Positions 6,386 to 50,856 of a DNA stretch of 64,000 nucleotides are shown one piece after another. Under the pieces are notes generated by a model that searched no databases, was not told the DNA's origin, and saw only the letters and a list, made by a program, of their open reading frames with translations. How positions within the stretch are numbered: position 1 is the stretch's first letter; each line of letters opens with the position of its first letter. Made by a program: the position numbers and the translations under genes. Source of the DNA: an uncultured Litoreibacter sp. (GTDB taxonomy: Bacteria; Pseudomonadota; Alphaproteobacteria; Rhodobacterales; Rhodobacteraceae); assembly GCA_947492995.1 (NCBI GenBank), contig CANLOU010000001.1, positions 1,125,001 through 1,189,000 on the forward strand, written 5' to 3'.

Positions 6386-8020
6386 ATGCAGTCAACAATC
6401 GCAGCAACCCGGTCAACGGGCGCGCCGGCACCAGTGTCACTACCAATGGTGGGGCGGATGTTGCCCGCAACCTACGCCTATTTAGCATTCGCGGCGGTGA
6501 TAATGGCAACCGCTATATATACTGCATTTAACCTATCTTCTGTCGTGTCCTACACGCGCGACATCTGGCATCACCTGTCTGTCTACCGCGAGCTGATGGC
6601 GTCCCCCCTTGAGGCGATGAACCCGCACGTGGCAACAGATGACCCCTCTCGATCCTATTCCCCGTGGACTATGTTCGTGGCGCTTCTGGCGCGGGCGATT
6701 GGGGCTGACCCGTTCGGGGCCATTGCAATCTCGGCGATTTTGTCGATGTTGTCGGTTGTCACCGGCATTTTCCTGTTTTCGCGCGAATACCTGCGGAACG
6801 CGTGGGCGCCTGCGCTGTTTCTATTGGTGTTCCTCGGCTCGTGGGGCGCGTATATCAACCACACCGGGTACCACACTGTCGCGACCTTTATGTATTCGGC
6901 GTCCTACCCGTTTGCCATCGTTCTGGGCATGGGCTTCGTGCTGTGGTGGATGGTGCTCAAGGCCCAGAAGGCAACCGGGCCTTCTTTTGTCTTGCTCCTG
7001 GGCCTGCTGGCGCTGCTTGGCGCGGCCCTGTTTATCACGCATCAGTTGCAGGGGCTCTTTGCGGTCGGCGCGGGCATTGGCTTTGCGCTCTTTGCGGGTC
7101 AGGCCTCGTTGGTCCGTCGCGTGATACTTGGCGTCGTTCTGCTGGGTGGCCTCTTCGTGTCGCAATACTGGTGGTATTTCGATCCAATCGCCTTCGTGCT
7201 CGACCCCGAGGTGCGCAAGGGCCATTCCGCCGTCAGACTGTTTGAATACTCGACCGACAACCTGTCGGAGATCTTTGCCAACCTTGGCATCGCATTGATC
7301 GGCATTGCCGGGCTTGTGAACGCCCGCACTGGCCGGTTCCGGCTGGAACTGGCCTTGCCGTTGCTCGTGCTGGTGTCGGGGTTCACCTATCTGCTGGTGA
7401 ACGGCAACTGGGTCAGCGTCCGCATCCTGCCCTTCGTGGCCCTGTTCCTGCAGATCGGCCTTGTCGCGTTCCTACTGAAGAAGACAGAGGCCGCGAACAC
7501 CGCAAGCGCCCTGCTGCGTGGCGGGATCATTGCCGCATTGGTCGCGGGGCTTGGCTACAACATCTACAAAGGCAATGAGAGCTATCAAAACTCCCGGACC
7601 TTCCTGGAAACCGGCTATATCGAGAAGCACTACATCACATGGAGCAGGGATATTCTTGCCGCCGCAGCCTACGCCGAAACATTGGCCCCCAGCGGTGCAA
7701 CGGTCATCGCGCATCGCGACACCGCCTTCCCGATGGAGGCGACGTCACTGGCTGTGGTCGCCATTCCCCGGCTCTTTGCCGAAGTGCCCGACATGCTGGA
7801 ACGCCAGGCCAACAACATCGCCTTTTTCGACGAGGCCACTTCGACAGAAACCCGTTGCAGCATTCTGGCGCAGTATGACGTCCAGATGATCGTCTACCGG
7901 CCCTATTGGTTGCCTGACGGGGTGGAACGGGACCTGCGGGCCTTCGGGTCAGTTCTGCCCAAAGGTGATCTGATGTTCATCCCCGCGCAAGACGGGGTGT
8001 TTGAGGCCTGCCCGTCATGA
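6386..8020 (+). CDS. Polytopic membrane protein, probably GT-C-fold glycosyltransferase
   Basis: A protein of about 544 residues with roughly ten or more hydrophobic segments. The first long loop after segment one contains RDIWHHLSVYRELM and later NPH and SPW. This placement of acidic and histidine residues resembles the catalytic first periplasmic loop of GT-C enzymes, which use polyprenyl-phosphate sugars. The C-terminal about 150 residues are soluble. The assignment is by pattern only. The start is taken at the ATG at 6386 behind a purine-rich GGGGAATTGAGGGA; an ATG at 6368 is also possible. The stop overlaps the next gene by four bases (ATGA). Confidence 0.65.
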   Translation: MQSTIAATRSTGAPAPVSLPMVGRMLPATYAYLAFAAVIMATAIYTAFNLSSVVSYTRDIWHHLSVYRELMASPLEAMNPHVATDDPSRSYSPWTMFVALLARAIGADPFGAIAISAILSMLSVVTGIFLFSREYLRNAWAPALFLLVFLGSWGAYINHTGYHTVATFMYSASYPFAIVLGMGFVLWWMVLKAQKATGPSFVLLLGLLALLGAALFITHQLQGLFAVGAGIGFALFAGQASLVRRVILGVVLLGGLFVSQYWWYFDPIAFVLDPEVRKGHSAVRLFEYSTDNLSEIFANLGIALIGIAGLVNARTGRFRLELALPLLVLVSGFTYLLVNGNWVSVRILPFVALFLQIGLVAFLLKKTEAANTASALLRGGIIAALVAGLGYNIYKGNESYQNSRTFLETGYIEKHYITWSRDILAAAAYAETLAPSGATVIAHRDTAFPMEATSLAVVAIPRLFAEVPDMLERQANNIAFFDEATSTETRCSILAQYDVQMIVYRPYWLPDGVERDLRAFGSVLPKGDLMFIPAQDGVFEACPS

Positions 8021-14079: not shown

Positions 14080-15360
14080 ATGGGCCTGACTATTCTCCTG
14101 CTGGTCTTCGGCATCATGGTTGTCGTGGGCATGCCCGTTGCCTTCGCAATGGGCCTCGCCGCCGCCGCCGCCTTCTGGTGGGAGGGCTTCCCGATGCTCA
14201 TCACCTTCCAGCGTGCCACATCAGGCGTGTCGGTCTTTTCCCTGCTGGCCATCCCCTTCTTCGTCTTCGCGGGGGAGCTCATGCTCCATGGCGGAATCGC
14301 CGTCAGGCTGGTGAAACTCGCCTCCGCCCTTGTCGGCCACCTCAAGGGTGGCCTCGCTATGGTCAACATTTTCTCGTCGATGCTCTTTGGCGGCATCTCC
14401 GGCTCCGCCATCGCGGACATCTCCGCGCTTGGCTCCCTGCTGATCCCGGTGATGAAGGAACGCGGCTACCGCCCGGACTTCGCGGTCAACGTCACGGTGA
14501 CGTCCTCCATCGCGGGTATCGTGATCCCGCCCAGCCACAACATGATTATCTTCGCGGTCGCCGCTGGCGGCGGGCTGTCGGTCTCCGGTCTGTTCCTTGC
14601 GGGCGTCATCCCCGGGATCATCATGTGCGTCAGCCTCGCCATTGCGGCCTACATCTTGTCGGTCAAACACAACTACCCGTCGGAGCCCTTCCCAGGTTGG
14701 CCCACCGTCGCCCGCACCGCCGCCGACGCGATCCCCGGGTTCTTCACCGCCGTTATCATTGTGGGCGGCACGCTGTCGGGCGTCTTCACGGTCACTGAAT
14801 CCGGTGCGTTCGGTGCGATCTACGCGCTGCTGCTGACCAAGTTCTACTACAAGTCCCTCAGCTGGGACTCCTTCGTGCTGGCCGTCACAGGTGCCGTGCG
14901 CACTACCGCCATGGTGATGATCCTCATCGCCTTCGCGTCGTCCTTTGCGTATCTGCTGGCGCTCTATCAGGTGCCCGGAAAGCTGTCTGACCTGCTGGTC
15001 ACCATCTCCGATAACCCGCTGATTATCCTGCTGATGATTAACATCATCCTGCTGCTCTTGGGCATGATTATGGACATGGCCGCGCTGATTCTGATCTGCA
15101 CGCCAATCTTCCTGCCCATCGCCAAGGGGCTGGGCATGGACCCGACGCAGTTCGGCATCATGATGCTGATTAATCTCGGGCTGGGCCTGTGTACGCCACC
15201 CGTCGGCACCTGCCTGTTTGTGGGCTGCGCGGTCGGCAAGATTAAAATCGAGTCCGCGCTGAAAACGATCTGGCCGTTCTACATCGCCATTTTCGCGGCG
15301 CTGATGCTGGTCACCTACGTGCCAGCCGTGTCGCTGTGGTTGCCCTCAATGCTCGACTAA
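14080..15360 (+). CDS. dctM: TRAP transporter large permease DctM
   Basis: A 426-residue polytopic permease with about twelve to thirteen membrane segments, the usual DctM size. Family regions include IPFFVFAGELM, the GGISGSAIADISALGSLLIPVM block and IPPSHNMIIFAVAAGGG, with the repeat counterpart GLGLCTPPVGTCLFVGCAVGK near the end. It is the ion-coupled channel of the TRAP system. It converges with kdgK and the two genes overlap by about 15 bases at their 3' ends. Confidence 0.93.
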   Translation: MGLTILLLVFGIMVVVGMPVAFAMGLAAAAAFWWEGFPMLITFQRATSGVSVFSLLAIPFFVFAGELMLHGGIAVRLVKLASALVGHLKGGLAMVNIFSSMLFGGISGSAIADISALGSLLIPVMKERGYRPDFAVNVTVTSSIAGIVIPPSHNMIIFAVAAGGGLSVSGLFLAGVIPGIIMCVSLAIAAYILSVKHNYPSEPFPGWPTVARTAADAIPGFFTAVIIVGGTLSGVFTVTESGAFGAIYALLLTKFYYKSLSWDSFVLAVTGAVRTTAMVMILIAFASSFAYLLALYQVPGKLSDLLVTISDNPLIILLMINIILLLLGMIMDMAALILICTPIFLPIAKGLGMDPTQFGIMMLINLGLGLCTPPVGTCLFVGCAVGKIKIESALKTIWPFYIAIFAALMLVTYVPAVSLWLPSMLD

Positions 15361-16236
15361 AGCGCCGCGCGCGCCAATGACCTTCGCCGACAAGGCGCAG
15401 GCCGCCGCCACGGCGGGCGCGATGCCTTGATCCAGTGCCGCAAAGAACCCCGCGTTGAAGCTGTCGCCGGCGGCGGTGCTGTCAACGACCTGCGCGACAG
15501 CGTCAGGCCGATGGACCCTCGTCTCGGCGCCCTCGGAAAACAGCACGTCCCCTGCGCCGTTCTTCACCACGACCATCGACGCGCCCGCGTCTTGGTAGCG
15601 CGCCAAGGTCGCCGCCGGGTCGGCGTCGCCAAAAAACGTTGCCTCGTCCTCATGGGAGGGCAAAACCAGATCGCTTGCCGCCGCCGCGTTCATGATGGCG
15701 GCGCACATCTCGGCCTCGTCGGCCCACAGTTTGGGCCGCAGGTTCGGGTCAAACGCCACCAAGGCTCCCGCCGCCCGCGCCTCGCGCATGACGCTCAGCA
15801 GGTTGCCCCGGCCTGCGCCTTCCAGCACGGCCAGGGTGATGCCTGAGAAATACACAATATCCGCACCCGCCACGGCTGCCCGCAGGGCCGCAACATCCGC
15901 CGCCAACGCTTTCGCCGCCGACTGGCCGCGCCAATATGAAAAGCTCCGCTCCCCGTCCTGCAGCTCGATCATGTACAAGCCCACGGTCCGCCCCGGCACG
16001 CGCTGGACGTGGTCCACCCCGATCCCATGCGCGGTCATGAACTCCAGCATCTGCGCCGAGGCCGCGTCGTCGCCAGCCCCCGTCACATACTCCACCGCCC
16101 ATTCAGGCCGCAGCCGTTTGGCGTACCAGGCGGTGTTGAAGCTGTCCCCGGCAAAGGCCCGTCGAAACGTCGCCTCCGCCCCGGTGGGCGCAAGTTCCAG
16201 CATGCATTCGCCGATGCAGACAAGGCGTTTGGTCAT
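15346..16236 (-). CDS. kdgK: 2-keto-3-deoxygluconate kinase (PfkB family)
   Basis: A protein of about 296 residues in the ribokinase/PfkB family. It has the N-terminal CIGECMLEL and GDSFNTAWYAKRL sugar-binding region and the C-terminal DSTAAGDSFNAGF motif that holds the anion hole and catalytic Asp. KdgK phosphorylates 2-keto-3-deoxygluconate to KDPG in the cytoplasm. The ATG at 16236 follows AAAGGAAACTTC. It is divergent from kdgF-kduI-kduD with a shared operator between them, and follows the pathway order expected downstream of KduD. The matching KDPG aldolase is not in the window. Confidence 0.88.
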   Translation of the reverse strand: MTKRLVCIGECMLELAPTGAEATFRRAFAGDSFNTAWYAKRLRPEWAVEYVTGAGDDAASAQMLEFMTAHGIGVDHVQRVPGRTVGLYMIELQDGERSFSYWRGQSAAKALAADVAALRAAVAGADIVYFSGITLAVLEGAGRGNLLSVMREARAAGALVAFDPNLRPKLWADEAEMCAAIMNAAAASDLVLPSHEDEATFFGDADPAATLARYQDAGASMVVVKNGAGDVLFSEGAETRVHRPDAVAQVVDSTAAGDSFNAGFFAALDQGIAPAVAAACALSAKVIGARGALVEH

Positions 16237-16260
16237 GAAGTTTCCTTTGATTGACACAGC

Positions 16261-16278
16261 TGGTATACTAACATACCA
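16261..16278. promoter_or_regulatory. Putative operator between kdgK and kdgF
   Basis: TGGTATACTAACATACCA is an inverted repeat, TGGTAT-N6-ATACCA. Its first ten bases equal those at 31289-31298. A perfect -35-like TTGACA is at 16251-16256, directed towards kdgF. The site can control both divergent genes. Confidence 0.72.
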
Positions 16279-16316
16279 CTTGTGAGCCAACTCATTTTGA
16301 ACGGGGATACGCCATC

Positions 16317-16625
16317 ATGTCCGATTACCCAATAGTGGACGCCGATCCCGGGGTCACCCGCCAGGTTCTGGCCGATCACCCCGACCTCATGGTCGTGGCC
16401 TTCCGCTTCCAAAAAGGCGCTGAGGGCAAGCTGCACAATCACCCGCATGTGCAATCCACGCATGTCAAAACAGGCCGCTTCCGCTTCCAGATGGACGGGG
16501 TCGAAACCGAATACGGTCCCGGCGACACGTTCGTCATCCCCTCCAACGCGGTCCATGGCTGCGTTTGCTTGGAACCCGGCACGCTGGTCGACTGTTTCAC
16601 GCCCCGCCGCGACGATTTCCTCTAA
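16317..16625 (+). CDS. kdgF: Cupin protein KdgF, unsaturated uronate linearisation
   Basis: A 102-residue single-domain cupin. The metal-binding pattern is H40-N-H42-P-H-V-Q46 in the first cupin motif and H80 in the second (PSNAVHGC), as in KdgF proteins. KdgF opens the ring of 4,5-unsaturated galacturonate or related lyase products to the linear keto form used by KduI or DEH reductase. The gene directly precedes kduI (15 bases) and is divergent from kdgK. The assignment rests on size, motif and pathway context. Confidence 0.82.
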   Translation: MSDYPIVDADPGVTRQVLADHPDLMVVAFRFQKGAEGKLHNHPHVQSTHVKTGRFRFQMDGVETEYGPGDTFVIPSNAVHGCVCLEPGTLVDCFTPRRDDFL

Positions 16626-16639
16626 CCCAAGGCCTGCAA

Positions 16640-17467
16640 ATGATGCTCAAAACCGAAACCCGCTACGCCATTGATCCCGCCTCTGCCAAGGCGCTCGACA
16701 CCGACGCCCTGCGCGCGCATTTTCAGGTCAGCGACCTGTTTGCCGAGGGCGAGATCCGCCTCGTATACAGCCATTATGACCGCCTGATCCTTGGCTCTGT
16801 GGTCCCCGTTGGCAAGACCCTGACCATCGACCGTGTTGAAGAAACCGGCACCGCCACCTTCCTTGAACGCCGCGAGATGGGCATCCTAAACATCGGAGAC
16901 GCAGGCCAAGTCACCGTCTCCGGCGACACCCACACCTTGGAAAAAGGCGAGGTGCTTTATATCGGCGTCGGCGCAGGCGCGATCGACTTCTCCGGCGCGG
17001 GCCGCTTCTACGTGCTCTCCGCGCCTGCCCACCGCACATGCCCCACGAAACTCATCAAACTGGCCGATGCCAAACGCGTGGAGCTTGGCTCCCGCGACAC
17101 CGCGAACGAGCGGGTTATCATTCAATTCGTCCACCCCGACGTCTGCGAAAGCTGCCAGCTGGTCATGGGCTATACCCAGTTCCAACCCGGCTCCGTCTGG
17201 AACACCATGCCCGCCCACCTGCACGACCGCCGGATGGAGGCGTATCTCTATTTCGACATCGACCCCGACCAACGCGTCTTCCATTTCATGGGCGAGCCGT
17301 CTGAAACCCGCCACATCGTCATGGCGAACGAGCAGGCTGTGATCTCGCCCCCTTGGTCCATCCATTGTGGCGCGGGCACAGGGTCCTACACGTTCTGCTG
17401 GGCCATGGCGGGCGACAATATCGACTTCACCGATATGGACATGGTGGATATGGGCGACCTGCGATGA
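16640..17467 (+). CDS. kduI: 5-keto-4-deoxyuronate isomerase KduI
   Basis: A 275-residue bicupin, close to the usual 278. The zinc site is visible as H193-x-H195 in PAHLHDRRMEAYLYFD, then E200 and H242, a constant offset of three from the E. coli ligands as I remember them. It isomerises 5-keto-4-deoxyuronate (DKI) to 2,5-diketo-3-deoxygluconate. The ATG at 16640 is preferred over an ATG at 16565 that lies inside kdgF. Its stop overlaps kduD (ATGA). Confidence 0.93.
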   Translation: MMLKTETRYAIDPASAKALDTDALRAHFQVSDLFAEGEIRLVYSHYDRLILGSVVPVGKTLTIDRVEETGTATFLERREMGILNIGDAGQVTVSGDTHTLEKGEVLYIGVGAGAIDFSGAGRFYVLSAPAHRTCPTKLIKLADAKRVELGSRDTANERVIIQFVHPDVCESCQLVMGYTQFQPGSVWNTMPAHLHDRRMEAYLYFDIDPDQRVFHFMGEPSETRHIVMANEQAVISPPWSIHCGAGTGSYTFCWAMAGDNIDFTDMDMVDMGDLR

Positions 17468-18192
17468 CGGCATTCAGTCTTGAGGGCAAAACCGCCCTCG
17501 TCACCGGCGCCAATACCGGCATCGGGCAGGCGATTGCCGTGGCCATGGGCCGCGCCGGGGCCCACGTGATCTGCGCGGGCCGTTCCGCAACGGCGGACAC
17601 GGTCGCCATGATCGACAGCGCCGAGGAACTGACCCTCGACTTCGCGGACCCAATGGCCGCGCAAGACACGTTCCAAACCCACAAGACAGACATCCTTGTG
17701 AACAACGCAGGCATCATCCGCCGAAACGACAGCACCGAATTCACGGAGGCCGACTGGGACGCCGTCATGGACGTCAATCTCAAGGCGCTGTTCTTCACCT
17801 CTCAGGCCTTTGCCAAAGCCGCGCTGAACGACAACCGGGAGGCCCGCATCGTCAACATCGCGTCGCTCCTGTCCTTCCAGGGCGGCATCCGCGTCCCCAG
17901 CTACACGGCGTCAAAACACGGTGTGGCGGGCCTGACAAAGCTGCTGGCAAACGAGTGGGCGGCCAAAGGCATCAACGTCAACGCCATCGCGCCCGGCTAC
18001 ATCGAGACCAACAACACCGAGGCCCTGCGCGCGGACCCAGACCGCAACAAGGCCATCCTCGACCGTATCCCTGCGGGCCGTTGGGGGCAGGCCGATGATA
18101 TCGCCGAAACTGCGGTCTTTCTATCCGCGCCCGCGTCCAAATACATCCACGGGGCCATCCTCAATGTTGATGGTGGGTGGTTGGCCCGGTAG
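17464..18192 (+). CDS. kduD: 2-deoxy-D-gluconate 3-dehydrogenase / diketodeoxygluconate reductase KduD
   Basis: A 242-residue classical short-chain dehydrogenase. It has TGANTGIGQA for the nucleotide, NNAG, the catalytic Ser near NIASLLSF and the YTASKHG motif (Tyr-x3-Lys). KduD reduces 2,5-diketo-3-deoxygluconate to 2-keto-3-deoxygluconate. Translational coupling with kduI and the presence of kdgF and kdgK make this assignment firm. It ends the operon; the next gene is convergent. Confidence 0.9.
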   Translation: MTAFSLEGKTALVTGANTGIGQAIAVAMGRAGAHVICAGRSATADTVAMIDSAEELTLDFADPMAAQDTFQTHKTDILVNNAGIIRRNDSTEFTEADWDAVMDVNLKALFFTSQAFAKAALNDNREARIVNIASLLSFQGGIRVPSYTASKHGVAGLTKLLANEWAAKGINVNAIAPGYIETNNTEALRADPDRNKAILDRIPAGRWGQADDIAETAVFLSAPASKYIHGAILNVDGGWLAR

Positions 18193-18227: not shown

Positions 18228-19118
18228 CTATTCGCTGCCAGCCCCGGCCAGTGCCGACACGGCATCCGCAAACGCCTCGATATAGCTGCTGCCATCCACG
18301 CCATGCGCAAGCGGGGGGAAGACCACGTTGCGCAGTCCAAGCGCGCCGGTCATGTCGAACGCGGCGGCGGATGGCTGCGCTTCCCAAATCAGGACCTGTG
18401 CGCCCTTGTCCTCAATGATGGCGCGCAGGGCGGCAAGCCCGGCCTCATCGGGCGTGGCACCCGCCTCCCATTCCAGCGCCGTCACGGAAAGGCCGTAGCG
18501 GCGGGCCAGATATTCGTACCGGGGGTGGGTGGTGATGATGGCGATGTTGGCAACGCCTGCCAATGCGCCCGCTGTCTCGGCGTCCAGCGCCTCAAGATCC
18601 CTCCGCAACGCGGCCAGCCGGGCGTCGACGTCCTCGGCTGATGCCAAATCACGCGCGGTGATTGCCACCGCAACAGCCTCTGCCTGTGCGATGGCCAACG
18701 CCGGATCAAGCCATGTGTAAGACGCAAGCCCTTCATGGGAATGCTCGCCGCCGTCGCCATGGCTGTGGGTGATGCTTTCCGTTACGATGAACTGGTCTTC
18801 GATGGCGGCGGTGGTGTTGACCAGCTTCGAGCGCGGCAGCGACACGCGGTCAACCCAGGTCGCAAAGCCCGCGCCGTTCAACAAGATCAGGTCGGCGGAC
18901 TGGATCATGCTGATGTCGGCAATGGCGGGTCGCCAAAACGACGGGTCCACCCCTGCGGGAACCGGGAACACCACATCGGCGTCATCGCCCAACAGGCGCT
19001 CCGCAAAATACTGCAACGGGTGGTTTACGGCCACGACGCGGGGTTGCTCCTGCGCCGTTGCGCCAGCCGTGGCAAAAAGGAACAGCCAGACGGCCAGCAA
19101 GTGTTTCAAGACGGGCAT
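18228..19118 (-). CDS. Zn/Mn-family metal ABC transporter substrate-binding protein (ZnuA-like)
   Basis: A 296-residue periplasmic protein with a signal peptide (residues 1-22, ending TAQ). The cluster A-I metal-binding fold is indicated by VVAVNHPLQYFAERL, then a His-rich loop HSHGDGGEHSHEG (about 118-130), then ITTHPRYEYLARRYG and IWEAQPSAAAFD (His and Glu ligands). The loop resembles the zinc-sensing loop of ZnuA. No ABC-3-type permease (ZnuB) is nearby. Instead the operon holds a FtsX-type pair, which is unusual. It is the last gene of the six-gene operon. Confidence 0.85.
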   Translation of the reverse strand: MPVLKHLLAVWLFLFATAGATAQEQPRVVAVNHPLQYFAERLLGDDADVVFPVPAGVDPSFWRPAIADISMIQSADLILLNGAGFATWVDRVSLPRSKLVNTTAAIEDQFIVTESITHSHGDGGEHSHEGLASYTWLDPALAIAQAEAVAVAITARDLASAEDVDARLAALRRDLEALDAETAGALAGVANIAIITTHPRYEYLARRYGLSVTALEWEAGATPDEAGLAALRAIIEDKGAQVLIWEAQPSAAAFDMTGALGLRNVVFPPLAHGVDGSSYIEAFADAVSALAGAGSE

Positions 19119-19123
19119 AACGG

Positions 19124-19459
19124 TCAGCTTTGGCAGTTTCGGGCAATGTCGTCGGGGGTCACGATCCAGTAATTGTCGTGGCTGCCGGTATCGACCTCAA
19201 TCGACAGCCCGCCGGAATGGTCGACGCTGTCAAGCGGCACCGCGACGGTGCCGTCTTCGCCAATGGGCAGGGTCAGCATCAGGGTGTTTTGGCCATCCAG
19301 CACTCTGACGTCGCCCTGCTGCACGGCGTTTCCGTTGGAAAACTTGGCCTCCACCAGCACCGCCTCGCAGTCCACCGATGCGAACACCGTCAGCTGATGG
19401 GCGGCGGCCCCCGATGGGGCAAGCGCGCAGGCGCACGCAAGGGCTATGGCGCGGGTCAC
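19124..19459 (-). CDS. Small periplasmic protein, possibly NikL-like
   Basis: A 111-residue protein with a signal peptide (about 1-20, cut near AAAHQ). After cleavage it would begin with His, a feature of copper- or nickel-handling periplasmic proteins. The mature part is a short beta-rich domain with two cysteines, C29 in DCEAVLVEAKF and one near the C-terminus (ARNCQS). It resembles the small accessory protein of nickel ECF transporters (NikL), though I cannot confirm this. It overlaps the upstream DUF4198 gene by four bases. Confidence 0.6.
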   Translation of the reverse strand: MTRAIALACACALAPSGAAAHQLTVFASVDCEAVLVEAKFSNGNAVQQGDVRVLDGQNTLMLTLPIGEDGTVAVPLDSVDHSGGLSIEVDTGSHDNYWIVTPDDIARNCQS

Positions 19460-20232
19460 TGGCCGGTCCAGTCTTCGAAATGCACCCAGATCACGGCCCC
19501 CAGCTCAACCGCCTTGTCCTCGCCCGAGCCCGCGTCGGTCAGCGTGTAGTCCGCCGTGTTCAGCGCGGCAAAGCCCCACCAGCCATCCGACGGAGGGGCG
19601 TAGGTGAAGACGCCGTTGGCGTCGGCCTTGACGGTCTGGGTAATCATCAGGTCGTCCGGCACGGTGGCGCTTGCGCCCTCATTGAAGAACTCGACCTCAA
19701 CCTCGGCATAGGGGACGGCTTGCCCGTCCAGTTTGACGATGCCTTGGAACACGTTGTGTTCCCACAGGCCGAAGGGTTTTGACAGCGGCACAATTTCGGT
19801 CTTCAGGCCCAGTTCGGTGTCCCATCCCTCGTCGTCGCCGTAGGCGGTGACATAGGTCTTGGTGTAGTGGATGATGAACGCGTCCTCGGCGGGTTCCCAA
19901 TAGGGCTGCGGCTCCATCGCGAAGACGTAGGTGCCGGGGCGGTCCAGCGGGTATTGCAGGGTGTACCCCTGCTCGTCCATAACCGTGCCGTCCTGCAATT
20001 GGCCCAGCAGGTCCGTGGTCGCGCCTTCATGGGTGACCGAGAAGGCCACTGGCGTCTCCAGCGGCATGCCGGCCAGTTCGAACGGGTGCGAGAACGACAT
20101 GGTCAGCCCGACGCTGCGCCCGTCTTCTTGGCTAATCATCGGGTCGTCGGGGATAATCATCCCGTAGTGCGACAGGGCGGGGGTTGCGGCGATGAGGCCG
20201 GCGATGGATGCGGTGATAAGATGACGCGTCAT
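19456..20232 (-). CDS. DUF4198 (NikK-like) periplasmic protein
   Basis: A 258-residue secreted protein; the signal peptide is followed by SHYGMIIPDDPM. It has a beta-sandwich pattern with SFSHPFELAGM, TYVFAMEPQPYWEPAEDAFIIHYTKTYVTAYG and a second Ig-like domain around KLDGQAVPYAEVEVEFFN. This is the DUF4198 layout, known from additional periplasmic components of nickel/cobalt uptake. It has His at the mature N-terminus region and is coupled to the 111-residue protein. Its role in metal binding is inferred from the operon. Confidence 0.78.
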   Translation of the reverse strand: MTRHLITASIAGLIAATPALSHYGMIIPDDPMISQEDGRSVGLTMSFSHPFELAGMPLETPVAFSVTHEGATTDLLGQLQDGTVMDEQGYTLQYPLDRPGTYVFAMEPQPYWEPAEDAFIIHYTKTYVTAYGDDEGWDTELGLKTEIVPLSKPFGLWEHNVFQGIVKLDGQAVPYAEVEVEFFNEGASATVPDDLMITQTVKADANGVFTYAPPSDGWWGFAALNTADYTLTDAGSGEDKAVELGAVIWVHFEDWTGQ

Positions 20233-20247
20233 GAAATCTCCTGCTGG

Positions 20248-21417
20248 TTAGGCGCCAAGCGCGAGCAGCCAGCCCACCCAGCTTTCGGCATTTTGTGAAA
20301 CGATCGCGGCGCCTATGGCGGCGATAGCGGCTGACAGGGATAGTAATGTGATTGTCTCCGCGGACAAGAGCCGCAGGACCATGCCGCGCCGCGCGCCCAG
20401 CTTGACGGCCGTGGCGATTTCGCGGGCGCGCAGGCGGTAGCTCAGGAACACGGCCAGCCCGATGGCGGCCAGCGCCGCCACGGCGATGATGGTGGTGACC
20501 ACGTCCAGCAGCGATTTGATGCGGAAAATGCGGTCGACCAGCCCTTGGATCACGCCTGCGGGCGCGATCAGCTGGCTCGGGTTTTCGCCGTCCAGATACC
20601 GGCCTTTCAGGATGGTGCTGGCGCGGGCGTCGTTGGGCACGACGACCACGGCGGTGGTCGGGAAGTCGTCTTGGCTGCCATGGAAATGGAAGCTGTCGAT
20701 GTTGTCGTCGGTGATGCGCTGGTACTGCACGACGGCGGCGTTGGACACGGAGGCGCTGCCTGCGGCAACCTCGGCGGCGGTGACCACGTCTTCGTGGCCA
20801 TGGCCAATGCCTTGGATGACCCATGCGGTCTTGATGTCGACAAAAACCGCGCCGTCATCGGGGGAGTTGGTCGGGGCCAGAACGCCGACAATGGGCATCT
20901 CCAGCGGGTAGACGCCGTCCAGGTCGAACAGGTTTTCGGGCGAGGACACCAATGTGTCGCCGACCCCTTTGCCCAGCGTCTGGGCAACCTCCGCGCCGAT
21001 GACCGCGTCGCCAAGGATGGACAGGCCCCGCCCGTCGGACACGGTCAGGTCGCGGAAGTCGAAATAATCCAGCGTGGTGCCAACGATCCGGTGCCCGGCG
21101 GTGGAGAACGCCGAATGCAGCGGGATCGGCACGGCCAGCCCGCTGTCCCAGATCGCCTCGACCTCGCGCATCGCAACCGGCTCGGGCCGCTCGTCGGAAA
21201 AGTACAGCGCTGACATCGTCAGATCCAGCTGCGAGCCACGGCTGCCCAGCAGCAGGGGCGTGGCGTCGCCCCGCGCCACAAGGGCGCGCTCGCTGGTCGA
21301 CAGCAGGATCTGGGTGGCAATCGGCACCAACAGGATCAGGGCCGCCACCAGCGTCAGCACAAGGCTGCGCGCCCAGTGGTAGCGCAAATACGCAAAGGCT
21401 AGGTACAGCGCGTTCAT
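20248..21417 (-). CDS. FtsX/MacB-type ABC transporter permease with His-rich periplasmic domain
   Basis: A 389-residue protein. The N-terminal membrane helix (about 18-40) is followed by a large periplasmic domain and three C-terminal helices (from about 305), the topology of the MacB/LolC/FtsX class. The C-terminal block SYRLRAREIATAVKLGARRG is typical. The periplasmic domain has two histidine pairs, HGH at 206-208 (GIGHGHEDV) and HFH at 244-246 (FHFHGSQDDF), suggesting metal contact. It overlaps the ATPase gene by four bases. Importer or exporter direction cannot be read from the sequence. Confidence 0.85.
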   Translation of the reverse strand: MNALYLAFAYLRYHWARSLVLTLVAALILLVPIATQILLSTSERALVARGDATPLLLGSRGSQLDLTMSALYFSDERPEPVAMREVEAIWDSGLAVPIPLHSAFSTAGHRIVGTTLDYFDFRDLTVSDGRGLSILGDAVIGAEVAQTLGKGVGDTLVSSPENLFDLDGVYPLEMPIVGVLAPTNSPDDGAVFVDIKTAWVIQGIGHGHEDVVTAAEVAAGSASVSNAAVVQYQRITDDNIDSFHFHGSQDDFPTTAVVVVPNDARASTILKGRYLDGENPSQLIAPAGVIQGLVDRIFRIKSLLDVVTTIIAVAALAAIGLAVFLSYRLRAREIATAVKLGARRGMVLRLLSAETITLLSLSAAIAAIGAAIVSQNAESWVGWLLALGA

Positions 21418-22082
21418 GCGTCAGCCCCTTGGCGGAACTGCGCAAAATCCAGCACCCGCTCAAAGCGGGGCAGCAGCTCGTGGTCATGGGTGACGGCCAG
21501 AACGGCGGCGCCCGCCTCGCTTGCTTGCTCAAACAGCAGGTCAAGGATGCGGGCCTTGCTTTCGGGGTCAAGGTTGCCGGTCGCCTCGTCCGACAGGATC
21601 AGCTTGGGCTGGGTCACAAGGGCACGGCAAATGGCCACGCGCTGCTGTTCGCCTTGGCTCAGGGCGGTGGGGTGGCGGTCCAGCTTGTCGCCGATGCCGC
21701 AGGCGGCGGCCAGCGCCTCGGCGCGGTCGCGGGCCTCGGCGTTCAGGGTCAGGGCGGGGGTGATGCGGTAAGGGTAAAGGATGTTCTGGCGGGCCGATAG
21801 GTAGTCCAGAAGCGCGAAATCCTGAAACACGAAGCCGATGGTGCTGGCGCGGAACCGCCGCCGCTGCACATCCGACAAACTCGCCACGTCCGTGCCGGCC
21901 ACGTCGATGCGGCCGGCCTCCGGTGTCAGGATGCCCGCGATCAGGTTCAGCAGGGTGGTCTTGCCGCTGCCGCTTGGCCCGACAATGGCCACCCGTTCAT
22001 GGTCGCCCAGCGTGAACGCGGGCACATGCAGCCGGAAGCTGGTCGCGCTGTAGCGAAACGAAAGGTTCTCAACAGAAATCAT
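21414..22082 (-). CDS. ABC transporter ATP-binding protein (LolD/MacB type)
   Basis: A 222-residue ATPase. Walker A is GPSGSGKTT, the Q-loop is FVFQDFALLDY, the signature is LSQGEQQR and Walker B is LILSDEAT. The last is the D-E-A-T variant common in LolD/MacB partners. A longer upstream frame exists, but ATG at 22082 begins the normal MISVENLSFRY start and overlaps the previous gene by one base. It pairs with the FtsX-type permease at 20248. Confidence 0.9.
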   Translation of the reverse strand: MISVENLSFRYSATSFRLHVPAFTLGDHERVAIVGPSGSGKTTLLNLIAGILTPEAGRIDVAGTDVASLSDVQRRRFRASTIGFVFQDFALLDYLSARQNILYPYRITPALTLNAEARDRAEALAAACGIGDKLDRHPTALSQGEQQRVAICRALVTQPKLILSDEATGNLDPESKARILDLLFEQASEAGAAVLAVTHDHELLPRFERVLDFAQFRQGADA

Positions 22083-22660
22083 CAGTTGGTCTGCGGCGCC
22101 GGAAAGGTCTCCCCCGCCTCGTCTCGGTTGACGTCCAGCAGGGTGAAGTCGGTGATCCGCCACGCGCCTTGAACGGGCGCGACCAGAAGGTCGGCGCTGT
22201 AGGTGTTGCCGCGCACATGCAAGTGCTCGGCATGGCCGACGGTGCCCACGACCTGCCACGAGGCATCAATCGCCAGCGCCGCGCCGTCGCGGGTCACCTG
22301 CGTGTTGAGAAGTTTGATCTCGTGGATGGTCTGGTCCGCTTCCTCCAGCCCGCCGCCTGCCATGGCGCCAACGCGCTCAAGGTAAAGGTATTCCAGCGCG
22401 TCCCCGTCCGTGACGCTGGCGAGGGTGTCATAGATGGCGTCTTCTTCCGTCAGGCCGAAGGCGTCGTAGACCACCAGCAAAAGGGCGGGCGTCAGGCGCC
22501 AGAATTCGACGCGGGCCTCTTCGATTGTCATCGGCTCAAGGCCGGGGGCCGCAAAGGCGTCGGTCTCGGAAATCCTGTCTGGAGATGGCCAAAGAAACAG
22601 CGCCGACACGGCGACGGCGCCCACAAGGGCAAGACCGGCAAGCAAAGGTATTCGGTTCAT
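22082..22660 (-). CDS. Uncharacterised membrane-anchored protein of the metal operon
   Basis: A protein of about 192 residues with one N-terminal hydrophobic helix (residues 5-23) and a soluble, probably periplasmic domain. I do not recognise the family. A histidine group near TVGHAEHLHVRGN (H143, H146, H148) echoes the His motifs in the permease and binding protein, and suggests metal contact. It is the first gene of the six-gene operon. An in-frame TTG at 22684 gives an eight-residue longer form, but neither start has a strong ribosome site. Confidence 0.6.
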   Translation of the reverse strand: MNRIPLLAGLALVGAVAVSALFLWPSPDRISETDAFAAPGLEPMTIEEARVEFWRLTPALLLVVYDAFGLTEEDAIYDTLASVTDGDALEYLYLERVGAMAGGGLEEADQTIHEIKLLNTQVTRDGAALAIDASWQVVGTVGHAEHLHVRGNTYSADLLVAPVQGAWRITDFTLLDVNRDEAGETFPAPQTN

Positions 22661-23428: not shown

Positions 23429-24172
23429 TTAGCTGAACAGCATGCCGCCGTTAATATCTACGTTGACACCTGTCAGGAACGCGGACTGATCGGTCGCCAG
23501 ATAGGCCACCAGATTGGCCACATCCACTGGCAGACCTTCGCGCTTCAGGGGCGTGTTGCCAGCCACGATTTTGCGCACTTCGTCCTTGGTGAAGTTGTTG
23601 TGGAAGTCGGTGTCGATCATCCCCGGGCAGATCGCGTTTACCCTGATGTCAGGCCCAAATTCCTTTGCCAATCCACGGGTTAGCGTCATCACCGCCCCTT
23701 TGGAGGCCGCATAGGCTGCCGCCCCCGGCCCGCCGCCGTCACGACCCGCCTGCGAGGCCAGATTGATGATCGCGCCCGACGTCATGTGCTGCGCTGCGGC
23801 CTTCACCAGCAAGAAGGTCGAGGTCAGGTTCAGGTCCATCACATTGTTCCAATGCTCCAGCGACATCTCCTTTATCGGCACCCGCTTAATCAGCCCGCCC
23901 GCGTTGTTAACCAGCACGTGTATGCCGCCCAATTCCGACGCCGCCCGGTCAACCAGCGCGTTCACCTCCGCCTCGCTCGTCAGGTCGCCCTGCATCGCGA
24001 AGGCTTTGCCGCCCATCGCTTCGATCTCTTTGACCGCGCTGTCGGCCCCGTCCGAGGACGAGTGGTAGTTGATCGCGACATTTGCGCCTTCTTCGGCCAG
24101 GCGCATCACGCAGGCCCGTCCAATGTCACGTCCGCCACCGGTTACAATCGCGGTTTTTCCTTTAAGCATCAT
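23429..24172 (-). CDS. SDR oxidoreductase, probable 4-deoxy-5-hexoseulose-uronate (DEH) reductase
   Basis: A 247-residue short-chain dehydrogenase. It has [10 protein letters not shown] for the nucleotide, NNAG, the catalytic Ser in NLASQAG and YAASKGA (Tyr-x3-Lys). Position in the operon matches the Agrobacterium locus, where a PL15 lyase (Atu3025) is followed by a DEH reductase (Atu3026). DEH is the unsaturated monomer from alginate; reduction yields 2-keto-3-deoxygluconate for KdgK. The start is set at ATG 24172 behind AGGATAAG. An alternative is a general sugar dehydrogenase. Confidence 0.78.
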
Positions 24173-24193
24173 GGTCTTATCCTTCATCTTATT

Positions 24194-26527
24194 TTATCGC
24201 CCAACGTCAAATGTCTTGGGCACGGTGACTTTGAAACTGCGTTCCTCTGCGTCTGTAAAATACAGATCGCAGTCATATCCTTGGTCGTCGAGGAAACTGA
24301 AAACCCGCTTTGGTGCGTCCATCGCGTAGGGCACCAGCAGCGTCGCAATGCGGTGCCGCGTGGCCTTTGGAAACTTGGCATGCAGGCAGGTGCTGACCGG
24401 CAAACCCTCGTATTCAGACGGGTCCACATCCGGGAATCCGGTCTCTTGCGTTAACTGTCCTGCGCCCGCCTCGGACCACAAAAACTGGCCGTAAAACCCG
24501 GCCTTTTCGCCCGTATAGCGGAATGTCGTGCCACCCAGTTTCATCGGCGCGTTCGCGTGCAGCAGCCAGTCAATATCCACCGGCTCATCCGCGTCCACCG
24601 CGTCTACGATCACAAAGTAACTATCGTTAACGAAATAGACGTCCCGCAACGCCTGCGTGACGCTTGGCGTTAACGATTTGTAGGCCTGCGTGGCGTCGCC
24701 CTGCATGAAGATATGGTCGCCCCGATCCTCGGCCACCAGCAGCTTGCCGGTCGACTTCATCGCCGCCGCTTTGTCCTTGCCCGCGTATTGCCCGCTCCCA
24801 TCAATCAAGATCGCATTCTTGGACCGCGTCTGCCGCCGCCAATTCTGGTGCATCGTGGAATTGAAAGCCACGTAATGCCCTGATTGAATTGCTAAATCTT
24901 CGCCAAACCCGGACAAACAAAACGCGTTCTGGTCGCCGTGGCTATGGCTGACCGACCCAAAGGGCGACGATTTGAAAACAAACTGAATATGCTCTTTCGG
25001 GTTGTCCATCTTGTGCTGAATCGCGGCCCATCCAACACCCTTGAACCACCGCAGTTTCGGCAGCTTGGAAGGCGAGGTCGCCTCCACAATTCCGAAATCA
25101 TGTTGGTAAACCATCTCGTCAAAATTGAAGTCCCACCAACCCCAATTGTAGAACTCCATTTCGGTGCCTTGGTCGTTGCGCTTCACCTCGTCGTAATACC
25201 AGGTATAGGCCCCGTTCCCCGTCACGCCCGCATATTGGCGCAGGTTGTAGCCGATCTTCAGACAGGGCAAATCGCCCATGGTGCTGTCATCGCCAAAGGT
25301 CCCGCGCCGCGTGTCAGGCGCCTTGGTGTAAAGCGGGAAATCACCGGTCGCCTGAAAGAACGGGCGTTCATAAAGGTTAATGCCGGAGAAGCTCTTGAGC
25401 ATGTTCGCCGCATCAATCAGATAGGCCATTCCGGTCATCCAATAATGCGGCCCCTCGGCCCAACCGCCATCAGTGTCACCCCACGGCGAATAGACCGTGG
25501 ACAGGAACTCAACCGAGTAATCCAGCCACTCCCGCGCCTCCGGTTCTTCGTCCAGCATCGCGATGCTGGACGGGATCAAAACCGCCGACACCGCGCGCAC
25601 AGCGTGGCTGTCAAACGGGAACAAGTGGATGTTGGCATGTTTGATAATATGGTCCGCCGTTTCGCGGGTTCGGGCCAGCAAGGCGCTGCGCACTGTCGCC
25701 GCTTCCTCGTCGGACAATTGGTCATGCAGCCAGTCATAGCCCCACGCCAAAGCAAGGTTAACGCGGAAGGCCCATTCGTCGGTATAGCTGCGCGATGTGG
25801 TCCCTGCGGGGTTCCATGATGCGGCTGCCATCAGCCATTCCTTCGCCCGCGCGACCATCGCGTCATCACCGGCAATCTTGCCGCCGATCGCCAGGTGCCG
25901 GATCGCATAAAGCAGCTCCTGACAGGCGATATATGTCGCCCGCCAGATCGGCGCGGTGCGCTGATGTCCGGGGTACCCTGCGGGTTCCTCCATGATCTCG
26001 CGGTCCATCCATGGGGCCACGGATTTGTCGAAAAACACGTCCCACGCGCAATGCGCGGGATCCTTGGCGATGTCCTTCTTGAAGGCGGTCAATTGCTTGG
26101 AATTCAGCCACAGCCGGGGGTGGGTCATATCTGCTTTGGCGTAGCGATCCAGCCGCGACGGCAAAGGCGCCTCTGTCGCGTTTTCTAGTATAGAAAACGA
26201 ACGGGTGTCGCTCCAATCTGATGCCACGGCGTCCCCCTCCCACACGGCGTAGCGCCAGTGGTAGGTCCCCGCGGGGAACGCGGTATGGGGGGTGAAAAAG
26301 TTAAGCTCTAGTCCGGTGAATTCATGCCGGTTCCCCGCAGGGAACTCCGCATCTGGCGACAGCTGCACCACATATTGCGCCTCGTCTTCGATGACGGGCA
26401 ACCACGTGAATCTGGGAGGGGTCTCAACCAGTTTTTCACCTTCGGCCGGTGCATATTGAATGTTAAGACGTCCGGCCCTTGGCTGGTCCAGTGGGACAAG
26501 TGCAGCGGATGTTTTGGCGGACGGCAT
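24194..26527 (-). CDS. PL15-type exo-oligoalginate lyase (heparinase II/III-like, DUF4962)
   Basis: A 777-residue protein. Its N-terminal beta domain (about 1-120) is followed by an alpha/alpha-toroid with DUF4962 and a C-terminal heparinase II/III-like beta-sandwich (FGSVSHSHGDQNAF). Residues I remember as the active site of Agrobacterium Atu3025 (Arg199, His311, Tyr365, His531) have counterparts at R196 (TAPIWRATY), H308 (DSHAV), Y362 (EGPHYW) and H528, all at an offset of three. No signal peptide is seen, which fits cytoplasmic cleavage of imported oligomers to monouronates. The start at 26527 follows AAGGA. Confidence 0.88.
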   Translation of the reverse strand: MPSAKTSAALVPLDQPRAGRLNIQYAPAEGEKLVETPPRFTWLPVIEDEAQYVVQLSPDAEFPAGNRHEFTGLELNFFTPHTAFPAGTYHWRYAVWEGDAVASDWSDTRSFSILENATEAPLPSRLDRYAKADMTHPRLWLNSKQLTAFKKDIAKDPAHCAWDVFFDKSVAPWMDREIMEEPAGYPGHQRTAPIWRATYIACQELLYAIRHLAIGGKIAGDDAMVARAKEWLMAAASWNPAGTTSRSYTDEWAFRVNLALAWGYDWLHDQLSDEEAATVRSALLARTRETADHIIKHANIHLFPFDSHAVRAVSAVLIPSSIAMLDEEPEAREWLDYSVEFLSTVYSPWGDTDGGWAEGPHYWMTGMAYLIDAANMLKSFSGINLYERPFFQATGDFPLYTKAPDTRRGTFGDDSTMGDLPCLKIGYNLRQYAGVTGNGAYTWYYDEVKRNDQGTEMEFYNWGWWDFNFDEMVYQHDFGIVEATSPSKLPKLRWFKGVGWAAIQHKMDNPKEHIQFVFKSSPFGSVSHSHGDQNAFCLSGFGEDLAIQSGHYVAFNSTMHQNWRRQTRSKNAILIDGSGQYAGKDKAAAMKSTGKLLVAEDRGDHIFMQGDATQAYKSLTPSVTQALRDVYFVNDSYFVIVDAVDADEPVDIDWLLHANAPMKLGGTTFRYTGEKAGFYGQFLWSEAGAGQLTQETGFPDVDPSEYEGLPVSTCLHAKFPKATRHRIATLLVPYAMDAPKRVFSFLDDQGYDCDLYFTDAEERSFKVTVPKTFDVGR

Positions 26528-26606
26528 GGTGATGTTTTCCTTAGAGGGTGGCGAGATAGAAAGGGGCGCAGCAAAGCCTGCCGCGCCCCCTCCAGGGAGA
26601 TTGGAT

Positions 26607-28175
26607 TTAGCCGCCGTATTGGCGCTCATAGGCGGATTGCATCACGCCAAGAACGTCCTGCAGGCCCATTTGGTTCAGGGTCGCCATGTAGTCGTCCCAA
26701 TCGGCTTCAACGTCGCCTGTGCCCAAAATCCACGCTTGCTGGCGCTCCAGCATATAGTCGCGGATCGAGCCCCAGCTTTTGTCGTAAACCTTCTGCTCGT
26801 CGGTGTTGAACGCGACGCCCAGGAACTGGTCGATCAGGTAGTCGCCTTCGTCATACAAAGCGATGCCTTCCAGCGCGAACTTGTTCGACCACTGCTTCTC
26901 GTATTCGTAGTCTTGGAAGTAACCACGTGCCTGAAGCTGTGCCCCGATGCCGTACAATTGGTTGTTAACGGGTTGGTCGCTGTTCAGCACCTCATCGGTG
27001 AAAACAGGGGCCCCATCAACCATCGTGTAGTGCTCGCCTTCGACGCCAAAGTTGGCCAGGCGGCGGCCTTCTTCGGTGAACCAGAAGTCAAAGTACTTGA
27101 TGGTCTCAACAGGGTGCTCGTTGGTGTGGCCAATGGCCCAGCCGTCGGGCTTGATCGGGATGCGGCGGTGCTCTTCCATCCGCACGCCAGAGATCGACGC
27201 AGGGGGCGCAAACGCCTTGAATGCGAAGCCATCAACCTTGTCGGCAAGCGACGTGTTGTAGCCGGAAGTCGAGGCGAACCAGTCATGCGTGGCGCCGCCC
27301 AAATTCTCCGACAACAGGTAGTCGCGGGATGAACTGCCGCGGGTGAACACCTCGGCATCAATTAACCCCATCTCGTACCAACGGGCCAAATTCTTAATAC
27401 CTTCGCGGTAGCCTTCACCTGCGTAAGGGTGTTTCAACTGGCCGTCATCGACGTAGAAGTCGTGGTATGTGTCGGATCCCGAAGACCGGCCATCCCATAG
27501 GGTCACCAGCCGGATCATTTCGGGCCATTGGCGCGCGAAATAAGGAATTTCGTCCTTCAGCCCGTTGCCATTCGGATCGCCGTCGCGGAAAGCAACAAGC
27601 ACATCTTCATATTCCTGAACGGTTTGCGGCACCTCCAGCCCCAGCTTGTCCAGCCAGTCATAGCGGATGAAGAACGCCCGACCGTATTTGCCGTCCGGCA
27701 GATAGGGGATGTAATACATGTTGCCGTCAGCCGCAGAAATCGCGTTGGCAATCTCGGGGCGGCTCTCAAAGAACGCCTTCAGGTTCGGCGCATGCTCGTC
27801 GATCAGGTCGTTGAGCGGGATGAACGCACCTTCGGGGCCAAACTGGTTCACGAAGTCTTTCAGACGCGAGGACCCAACAATGTCCGGGATCGCACCCGAG
27901 GCCAGCATCAGGTTCAGCGCCTCGGTTTTGCCGGTGTTTTCCTGATCCGACGTGATGTTCGCGCCCACGGTTGCGTCCTGCAGCGAAATGCCGGTCATGG
28001 CGCGCGCCGCCTGTTCCACCGGCCAGTCTTCCTGATAGGTCGGGTAGCGTTTGTGGTTCATCTGAATGGTCAGCGTCAGCGGTTCATCTACAATTTGCAG
28101 ATGCCCGTCAGACAGGGCGGGGGCGGCTAGACCGGTGGTCAGCAAGAGCCCTGATAGAAGTGATAGTTTCCGCAT
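26607..28175 (-). CDS. Alginate-type oligosaccharide-binding protein (AlgQ-like)
   Basis: A 522-residue binding protein with a signal peptide (cut after about residue 22, ALSDG). A calcium-loop-like segment DGDPNGNGLKDE (residues 198-209) corresponds to the EF-hand-like site of Sphingomonas AlgQ1/AlgQ2. The region MYYIPYLPDGKYGRAFFIRYDWLDKLGL is typical of this binding-protein family. It feeds the permease pair at 28205-30080. ATG 28175 is preceded by GGGAGGAA. It lies between the permeases and the PL15 lyase gene, so it probably binds short alginate oligomers; pectic oligomers are the alternative. Confidence 0.85.
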   Translation of the reverse strand: MRKLSLLSGLLLTTGLAAPALSDGHLQIVDEPLTLTIQMNHKRYPTYQEDWPVEQAARAMTGISLQDATVGANITSDQENTGKTEALNLMLASGAIPDIVGSSRLKDFVNQFGPEGAFIPLNDLIDEHAPNLKAFFESRPEIANAISAADGNMYYIPYLPDGKYGRAFFIRYDWLDKLGLEVPQTVQEYEDVLVAFRDGDPNGNGLKDEIPYFARQWPEMIRLVTLWDGRSSGSDTYHDFYVDDGQLKHPYAGEGYREGIKNLARWYEMGLIDAEVFTRGSSSRDYLLSENLGGATHDWFASTSGYNTSLADKVDGFAFKAFAPPASISGVRMEEHRRIPIKPDGWAIGHTNEHPVETIKYFDFWFTEEGRRLANFGVEGEHYTMVDGAPVFTDEVLNSDQPVNNQLYGIGAQLQARGYFQDYEYEKQWSNKFALEGIALYDEGDYLIDQFLGVAFNTDEQKVYDKSWGSIRDYMLERQQAWILGTGDVEADWDDYMATLNQMGLQDVLGVMQSAYERQYGG

Positions 28176-47984: not shown

Positions 47985-48024
47985 AGGGACCTCATTGTGT
48001 TTTCCCTAAGTTATTTTCAAATCG

Positions 48025-48101
48025 TGCATATTGAGAGACCAATTTTTGTACGATATGTGTAAATAATTGTGCACTATGACTGAGCTTTTATGCATATTGA
48101 G
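48025..48101. repeat. Two TGCATATTGAG direct repeats in the arginase / Lrp promoter region
   Basis: The 11-mer occurs at 48025-48035 and 48091-48101, 66 bases apart start to start. The second copy covers the Lrp ribosome site; the first lies in front of arginase. AT-rich TGTAC/GTGCAC elements lie between. Good candidates for Lrp-type operators. Confidence 0.55.
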
Positions 48102-48107
48102 GGTCGT

Positions 48108-48533
48108 ATGGATGTTCTCGACAAGACAGACCGCGCATTGATCTCTGCGCTCACCGCCGATAGCAGAGCCTCGGTCACCACTTTGGCGTCCTCGTTAGGA
48201 GTGACCCGTGCCACGGTTCAAAGCCGCATGGATCGCCTCAAGCAGGATGGCATTATCCGACGGTTTACCGTCGAGCTGGGGGCTGTTGCGCAGCCCGATG
48301 TTGTGAAAGCGGTTATGCTGATCGAGTTACAAGGTAACCTTGCGCGTCAAGTGACTGCCGCTTTGCGCCGCAAACCCGAAGTTGTCGACCTTCACAGCAC
48401 AAACGGTACTTGGGATTTGGTCGCACAGATCGACACCACCAGCCTTGCCGAGTTCGACCGCATCCTGCGCGAAGTGCGGGAGATAAATGGCGTTTTGAAC
48501 AGTGAGACCTGTTTACTGCTCAACCGCGCCTGA
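48108..48533 (+). CDS. Lrp/AsnC-family transcriptional regulator of arginine catabolism
   Basis: A 141-residue regulator. The N-terminal helix-turn-helix (LASSLGVTRATVQSRMDRLKQDGII, about 25-50) is followed by a RAM effector domain (VHSTNGTWDLVAQIDT-type). Divergent from arginase, in the arrangement seen for arginine-responsive activators in alphaproteobacteria. The start at 48108 is preceded by GAGGGTCGT, inside the second repeat; an ATG at 48090 is an alternative start. Confidence 0.85.
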   Translation: MDVLDKTDRALISALTADSRASVTTLASSLGVTRATVQSRMDRLKQDGIIRRFTVELGAVAQPDVVKAVMLIELQGNLARQVTAALRRKPEVVDLHSTNGTWDLVAQIDTTSLAEFDRILREVREINGVLNSETCLLLNRA

Positions 48534-48608
48534 CCGCAAAGTTTGCCAGTGTTAAGCCAGATTTCATAAAGACGCGCGTATGAGGGGCCCAATTGCAAAG
48601 GTGCCCAC

Positions 48609-49436
48609 ATGTCTGACGAAGTTCGCCCCATAATCATCAAACGCAAGAAAGTCGTGGCCAATGCCGGACATCATGGCGGTGCTTGGAAAGTGGCATATGC
48701 CGACTTTGTAACTGCCATGATGGCATTTTTCATGCTAATGTGGCTGCTCAACGCGACGACGGAAAAGCAGCGCAAGGGGCTGGCGGATTACTTCAGCCCA
48801 ACGATCGCCATTGCGCGGGTGTCTGGCGGCGGTGACGGCGCTTTTGGTGGTGACAGCCTGATGTCTCAGGAAACCTTGGCGAAAACGGGCACAGGCGGAG
48901 CGGCGGATCTGCCGCCAATGGGCCTAAGCGAAAGCGGTCGAGACAGTATAGAGGGCGCCCGGGCGCTGACAGAACTGGAAGACGTTCAGATGAGCATTGT
49001 CGGGCGTGGCGGAGACAGTCTTATTCAAGAGCTGGCCAAACAGCACATTCGCACCCGCCTGTCCGATGAAGGACTGGTCATTGAAATTTTTGACCTTGAG
49101 GGTGCGCCGTTGTTCGAGCCGGGGACTGCGTCTCCGACCTCCGTGATGGAAGCGATTGCCGACATTTTGAAAGATGCTTTTGAGCTGGTAACAAACCCGG
49201 TCAGCGTTGCGGCCCACAGTCAGACCTACAGTCCTTTGCAGTTGAACAATCCAGCTTGGCCGCTCACGACGGATCGGGCTCAGACGACCCGCATGTTGCT
49301 GGAAAGGTCCGGATTTCCGAGCGAACGGGTTGCGCGTGTGACAGGCCATGGTCAGCAAAAACCGCTTATCGACAACCCTATGGCTGCCCGCAACAACCGA
49401 CTGGAGGTCACCCTGCTGCGCGGCGATCTGAACTAG
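48609..49436 (+). CDS. motB: Flagellar motor stator protein MotB
   Basis: A 275-residue stator protein with a cytoplasmic basic N-terminus, a single membrane helix with the proton-binding D32 (WKVAYADFVTAMMAFFMLMWLLN) and a C-terminal OmpA-like peptidoglycan-binding domain (about 140-275, ending NPMAARNNRLEVTLLRG). D32 fits the position of the essential Asp. MotA is at the other end of the flagellar cluster (61044), so the stator genes are separated. Confidence 0.92.
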   Translation: MSDEVRPIIIKRKKVVANAGHHGGAWKVAYADFVTAMMAFFMLMWLLNATTEKQRKGLADYFSPTIAIARVSGGGDGAFGGDSLMSQETLAKTGTGGAADLPPMGLSESGRDSIEGARALTELEDVQMSIVGRGGDSLIQELAKQHIRTRLSDEGLVIEIFDLEGAPLFEPGTASPTSVMEAIADILKDAFELVTNPVSVAAHSQTYSPLQLNNPAWPLTTDRAQTTRMLLERSGFPSERVARVTGHGQQKPLIDNPMAARNNRLEVTLLRGDLN

Positions 49437-49527
49437 GAACTTACTTACGATTTTATCTGTTAGGGCAGAATTAACATACGCCGTTGATAGTCCGCCCAAC
49501 TGATGGCTGCTTTTGAAAGGCGCAACT

Positions 49528-50832: not shown

Positions 50833-50856
50833 GAAAACAAGGACCTAGGTGTTTCC

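Follow-up and report, generated by a model that had tools for sequence, protein, structure and literature searches.

Why is a ZnuA-family binding protein encoded together with a MacB-type ATPase-permease pair? The partners known for ZnuA-family proteins are ABC-3 importers (ABC, ATP-binding cassette); here one such protein is tied to a pair of another type. The question is raised by a 64,000-nucleotide stretch of DNA, called the window below, from an uncultured Litoreibacter sp. (contig CANLOU010000001.1, positions 1,125,001 to 1,189,000). The original prediction placed a six-gene, non-canonical metal operon at window positions 18228-22660. There, six tightly packed open reading frames (ORFs) were all open on the minus strand, from a first ATG at 22660 to a last stop ending at 18228. 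From 5′ to 3′ they encode an anchored protein (the anchor), an ATPase, a permease, a DUF4198 protein, a NikL-like protein and a ZnuA-like protein. The successive junctions are a 1-base overlap, a 4-base overlap, a 15-base gap, a 4-base overlap and a 5-base gap. As predicted, none of the six products is an ABC-3 permease. The six genes do form an operon, centred on a histidine-marked four-gene ABC module that extends from marine alphaproteobacteria to planctomycetes. Gene order, conservation, histidine invariance and predicted folds were observed directly. Judged by its sequences, this is a conserved ABC module of metal type, whose function we infer. No description of the operon was found in the open-licence literature, a scope outside which most subscription papers fall.

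The same gene set recurred elsewhere. We counted 93 de-duplicated loci, the window included; they are not independent, and many are from close relatives within Rhodobacterales. All six genes were found in 43 of them. The core of anchor, ATPase, permease and ZnuA-like genes was whole in 76 of the 93, over several phyla, which confirmed the expected conservation of synteny and the tie between a ZnuA-family protein and a MacB-type pair. The core stood alone in 32 loci and was joined by a NikL-like gene in one. No ZnuA-like gene was detected in 9 loci, no anchor in 11 and no ATPase in 1; a Desulfofustis locus (L122) had no detected anchor. Some incomplete loci stop at a contig end and others do not. 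The counts leave out L080-L082, which have generic FtsX permeases, and the same-genome duplicates L063-L069 and L123 (same genome as L216). The six-gene unit stood as an operon, but its conserved core is four genes, since the DUF4198 and NikL-like genes were confined to Rhodobacterales loci and one Granulosicoccus contig. In Paracoccus liaowanqingii this pair is placed after the ZnuA-like gene, a relocation that fits an accessory role.

A scan with the window's permease gave 41 loci in named genomes, and profile A1 was built from 15 permeases. Permease matches above 280 bits were found in 15 of 149 genomes of the family, including the source genome (3.84 Mb), and 3 further genomes of 240 from the class had matches. 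At the level of the phylum, the profile picked out 7 of 398 genomes, five strongly and two weakly; the weak pair (102 and 96 bits) probably represents generic permeases. Among planctomycetes 61 of 246 genomes matched, about a quarter. In the class of a Granulosicoccus locus (L118), 6 of 274 genomes did, its own included. The module was carried by 2 of 72,556 plasmid records.

The permease (gene 3, 389 amino acids, 20248-21417; all operon coordinates are on the minus strand) matched MacB_PCD PF12704 with 34.7 bits (cut-off 27), and its FtsX match fell under the cut-off. The predicted histidine pairs 206/208 and 244/246 were at the positions given, and each of the four histidines was present in 93/93 loci. 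In the alignment of loci they belong to a GHGH motif (residues 205-208, 20794-20805) and an FHFH motif (residues 243-246, 20680-20691). The permease model had a predicted local distance difference test score (pLDDT) of 80. Its fold matched MacB, the best match, as well as LolCDE (LolC and LolE), HrtB and YbbAP, with E-values down to 4e-11; the matches with E ≤ 0.001 had low template modelling scores (TM-scores; TMq 0.28-0.46). In a quick tree of 57 permeases (32 module, 6 Zrg and 19 generic rows), the module permeases formed one clade with a Shimodaira-Hasegawa-like approximate likelihood ratio test (SH-aLRT) support of 100, and the Zrg permeases intermixed with generic FtsX rows. The closest permease among named-record loci, which may omit records very near the source genome, was that of Loktanella sp. 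PT4BL (L110), at 92%. Loci L038, L044, L051, L053 and L061 have generic FtsX-type permeases with long periplasmic HD-repeat loops.

The ATPase (gene 2, 21414-22082) is of the FtsE/LolD type. It matched ABC_tran with 116.5 bits. Its nearest NCBIfam models were FtsE and LolD, and it stayed under the cut-off for every match listed (25 of 219).

The ZnuA-like protein (gene 6, 18228-19118) matched PF01297 with 138.7 bits (cut-off 29), and its ligands are altered. Residue numbers follow the window proteins; alignment positions are lower by 2 for this protein and by 4 for the anchor. H118 and H120 of an HxHG motif were kept in 84/84 loci, H126 in 82/84, H128 in 81/84 and H198 in 78/84. The HxHG...HxH loop (residues 118-128) lies at 18735-18767. 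At the first canonical ligand position, Ser or Ala was found in 63/84 loci, and the residues listed, which cover 82/84, include no His; at the second, His was found in 21/84. When the window protein was aligned with solved relatives, Ser60 and Tyr134 took the places of the canonical histidines. Two other binding proteins of the same genome retain both. A quick tree of 23 binding proteins set 16 module rows apart from the 7 canonical rows; L203 was flagged as a long branch. The three ABC-3 permeases of the source genome adjoin two other ZnuA-family proteins, away from the operon. An ABC-3 partner encoded elsewhere for the operon's ZnuA-like protein was rejected, for this genome only, because the ABC-3 genes adjoin those other PF01297 proteins.

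The inner-membrane-anchored protein (gene 1, 192 amino acids, 22082-22660) had no Pfam or NCBIfam match. Its model (pLDDT 89) has an NTF2-like fold. The best fold match was the intermembrane-space domain of ARC6, with TM-scores of about 0.4-0.6, followed by VirB8-, CaMKII- and ketosteroid-isomerase-type folds. The histidine group predicted for this protein was found within the NTF2-like domain as an HxxHxH motif (22217-22234). H143, H148 and R150 were each present in 82/82 loci and H146 in 81/82, and the motif was also invariant in alignment set A2. In outgroup loci the domain forms the end of a protein of ~500-630 amino acids, whose N-terminal part has no family match.

The two accessory genes encode periplasmic proteins. 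The DUF4198 protein (gene 4, 19456-20232) matched PF10670 with 184.8 bits, and its H22 was found in 43/43 loci with a letter at that position (44 loci). The NikL-like protein (gene 5, GTG start, 19124-19459) matched NF058648 with an E-value of 7.9e-14 and 52 bits, under the cut-off of 100; its H21 and H94 were conserved in 43/43. Judged by eye, both proteins have a histidine at the mature N-terminus. With these, conserved histidines were found in five products, in agreement with the metal-binding hints predicted for at least five.

Sequence features point to periplasmic handling of a metal, nickel or zinc for instance, as the module's probable role. The explanation we favour, at somewhat below an even chance, is an ABC module of type VII (the MacB/LolCDE type) dedicated to a transition metal, which it would handle in the periplasm in the service of acquisition. 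In favour of it, the core is whole in 76/93 loci, three products (the permease, the ZnuA-like protein and the anchor) carry invariant histidines, the permease has a predicted MacB/LolC/HrtB fold, metal-uptake genes adjoin some loci and none of the six products is an adaptor. MacB-type systems relay ATP-driven motion into the periplasm (PMC11481552). The ATPase and permease of the module could act as a mechanotransmitter, in which cytoplasmic ATP binding and hydrolysis would shift the permease's periplasmic domain. The four histidines of GHGH and FHFH would make up a metal site or lie at its edge. With its rebuilt histidine site, the ZnuA-like protein may bring or receive the metal, and the tethered NTF2-like domain with its HxxHxH motif would be the hand-over partner. 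Between these two, the histidine-bearing domain of the permease may pass the metal. The metal would not need to cross the membrane at the module; it could be stripped, loaded or passed on, and a separate importer would take it up. In Rhodobacterales the DUF4198 and NikL-like proteins, both apparently starting with histidine, would join as two more periplasmic components. Metal binding, hand-over and the role in acquisition are what we infer here.

Several findings weigh against this explanation. Loop 208-231 of the permease model has low confidence, and the model gives no support for closeness of the histidines. Most scanned neighbours are not metal genes (Pfam scan, 116/165 ORFs of set A), and the ZIP neighbours come from one genus only. 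In 50 upstream regions with approximate starts, no common operator stood clearly above mononucleotide shuffles; the scan used seven patterns, with a single Zur consensus and without a Nur pattern.

A wider claim, that the module represents a widespread unrecognised type VII ABC class for periplasmic metal transfer, probably of nickel, with a ZnuA-type protein re-tooled after loss of its canonical site, a histidine-lined permease and a tethered NTF2-like partner, is rather doubtful. If true, such a class would give context to orphan NikK/NikL proteins, which Zhang et al. 2009 (PMC2667541) report as having no known role. Four invariant histidines in the permease itself also offer a cleaner way to test how MacB-type ABC systems act on metals, the two Zrg-type precedents being read in opposite directions.

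The systems nearest in composition are Zrg (ZrgABCDE) of Vibrio and PA4063-PA4066 of Pseudomonas, which likewise combine a separate ATPase, a MacB-type permease and periplasmic metal-binding proteins. ZrgA (PF10986) had no match in the source genome, and the module carries the ZnuA-like and NTF2-like proteins instead. ZrgE/PA4066, which we take to be DUF3299, had no homologue among the six products. GHGH and FHFH were missing from 6 Zrg permeases (seven regions were fetched and one gave no permease), which scored 75-98 bits on the module profile. Together with the separate clade of module permeases, this upheld the view that any relation to Zrg is loose at most. MacB-type permeases are not known to be ion channels, which counts against a Zrg-like importer in the strict sense, in which the permease itself would move zinc or another metal inward from the ZnuA-like protein. 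The altered canonical ligands of that protein and the missing Zrg motifs also speak against such an importer, and we consider it a serious but improbable competitor. For it speak the ZnuA-family protein in the operon and Vibrio ZrgABC, which is read as a zinc importer (PMC9820375). The Pseudomonas system is argued to be an exporter, of pyochelin-cobalt, from mutants and metal content (PMC11481552). This precedent, and MacB as the best fold match, would suit a machine that exports a metal, bare or bound to a chelator, with the ZnuA-like protein as loader. However, no MacA-type adaptor was found among the six products, the flanking ORFs of the window lying outside that scan, and the noted neighbours are uptake genes, though no by-name search for efflux genes was made. 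Export is unlikely, if a serious competitor.

A machine that inserts metal, or handles copper, to load periplasmic enzymes is quite improbable. In its favour are CopC and additional conserved proteins in the surroundings of L136 and L214, and an M28 peptidase gene next to the module in 10 of 35 fetched planctomycete loci (L193, L198-L201, L204-L207 and L210). Yet no enzyme is common to the loci, and CopC occurs in two loci only. Lipoprotein release of the LolCDE kind, unrelated to metal, is very improbable. The ATPase lies near the LolD and FtsE models and LolC/LolE are among the permease fold matches, but the ATPase reached 170.7 bits against a LolD equivalog cut-off of 307.75, and the module has invariant histidines and a ZnuA-family protein. 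No account of the operon as a characterised lipoprotein exporter was found in the open-licence literature.

Other known systems share single parts with the module. ZnuABC and TroABCD (cluster A-I binding protein plus ABC-3 permease) share the PF01297 protein, whereas the module operon lacks an ABC-3 permease and has mostly lost the canonical histidine ligands. The nickel energy-coupling factor transporter NikKMLQO has the same adjacent pair of a DUF4198 and a NikL-like protein, but the source genome has no CbiM/NikM, the NikL-like protein is under its cut-off and the ABC pair is of another type. With the type VII systems MacB, LolCDE, HrtBA and YbbAP the module shares the predicted permease fold, at low TM-scores; it differs in its four invariant histidines, its ZnuA-like protein and the absence of an adaptor among the six products. 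FpvCDEF, for pyoverdine iron release in Pseudomonas, joins FpvC, which binds metal in the periplasm, to ABC proteins; it was compared by description (PMC6954188).

For the metal of the favoured transfer module, nickel is our leading but tentative choice, ahead of zinc or cobalt. Nickel leads because a NikR gene occurs near the module in two lineages and because DUF4198 and NikL-like genes were added in Rhodobacterales. In L071 the NikR gene is directly upstream on the same strand. Both NikR proteins, of L071 and L136, pass NF002815 (126.8 and 186.3 bits, cut-off 83). Against nickel, both miss the TIGR02793 cut-off, the L136 gene is separated from the module by two genes and about 3 kb, on its far side, and the L071 protein seems, judged by eye, to lack most nickel ligands. 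Of the 104 loci scanned, a count that includes duplicates, only 2 had NikR near the module; the source genome had no match to NikR or CbiM/NikM (PF01891), and copper is suggested as well, by CopC near L136 and L214. Across the family genomes, nickel traits are a weak pointer to nickel. Urease alpha was found in 15/15 module carriers and 108/134 others (one-sided p 0.048, which ignores kinship, and some of the 108 are marginal matches). NikR was found in 6/149 genomes, in one of them (G083) directly upstream of the module, and CbiM in 53/139, at least 5 module carriers among them. At 359203-364464 of G000:C3, in the source genome, an ABC-3 permease gene and a ZnuA-family gene have a urease-alpha match ~2 kb away.

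Neighbour clustering found no widely shared gene beyond the six. ZIP genes lie beside L077 and L078, ABC-3 genes beside L070, L090 and L121, and other ZnuA-family genes beside some loci. CopC and a protein of ~230 amino acids without known function (P0014) are encoded upstream of the core in L136 (2877-5144) and L214 (11742-14111). A TonB receptor gene lies downstream in both, and a BNR-repeat protein is encoded near the module in L136. In the neighbour Pfam scan, which covered set A and not set B (211 planctomycete ORFs), the commonest families had only 2 or 3 members (25 of 116 families listed).

For the Zur or Fur site suggested upstream of the operon no clear signal emerged: with the one consensus used, Zur-like boxes did not exceed shuffled controls. 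The single exception among the loci was a perfect Fur-type palindrome in L070 (~7180-7330), in the interval that separates the module from a divergently oriented ZnuA-family gene belonging to an ABC-3 set. By eye, the recurrent upstream words CTTGCAGT/CTTGAAGT resemble a -35 element.

In the window the operon is flanked, as judged by eye, by sugar-acid genes at 15346-18192 (KDG-kinase-, KduI- and KduD-like) and by a second KduD-like gene and an 811-amino-acid heparinase/alginate-lyase-like ORF at 23429-26629. Over positions 48001-64000 the guanine-plus-cytosine fraction drops from about 0.58-0.61 to 0.49-0.54, and this region was perhaps acquired.

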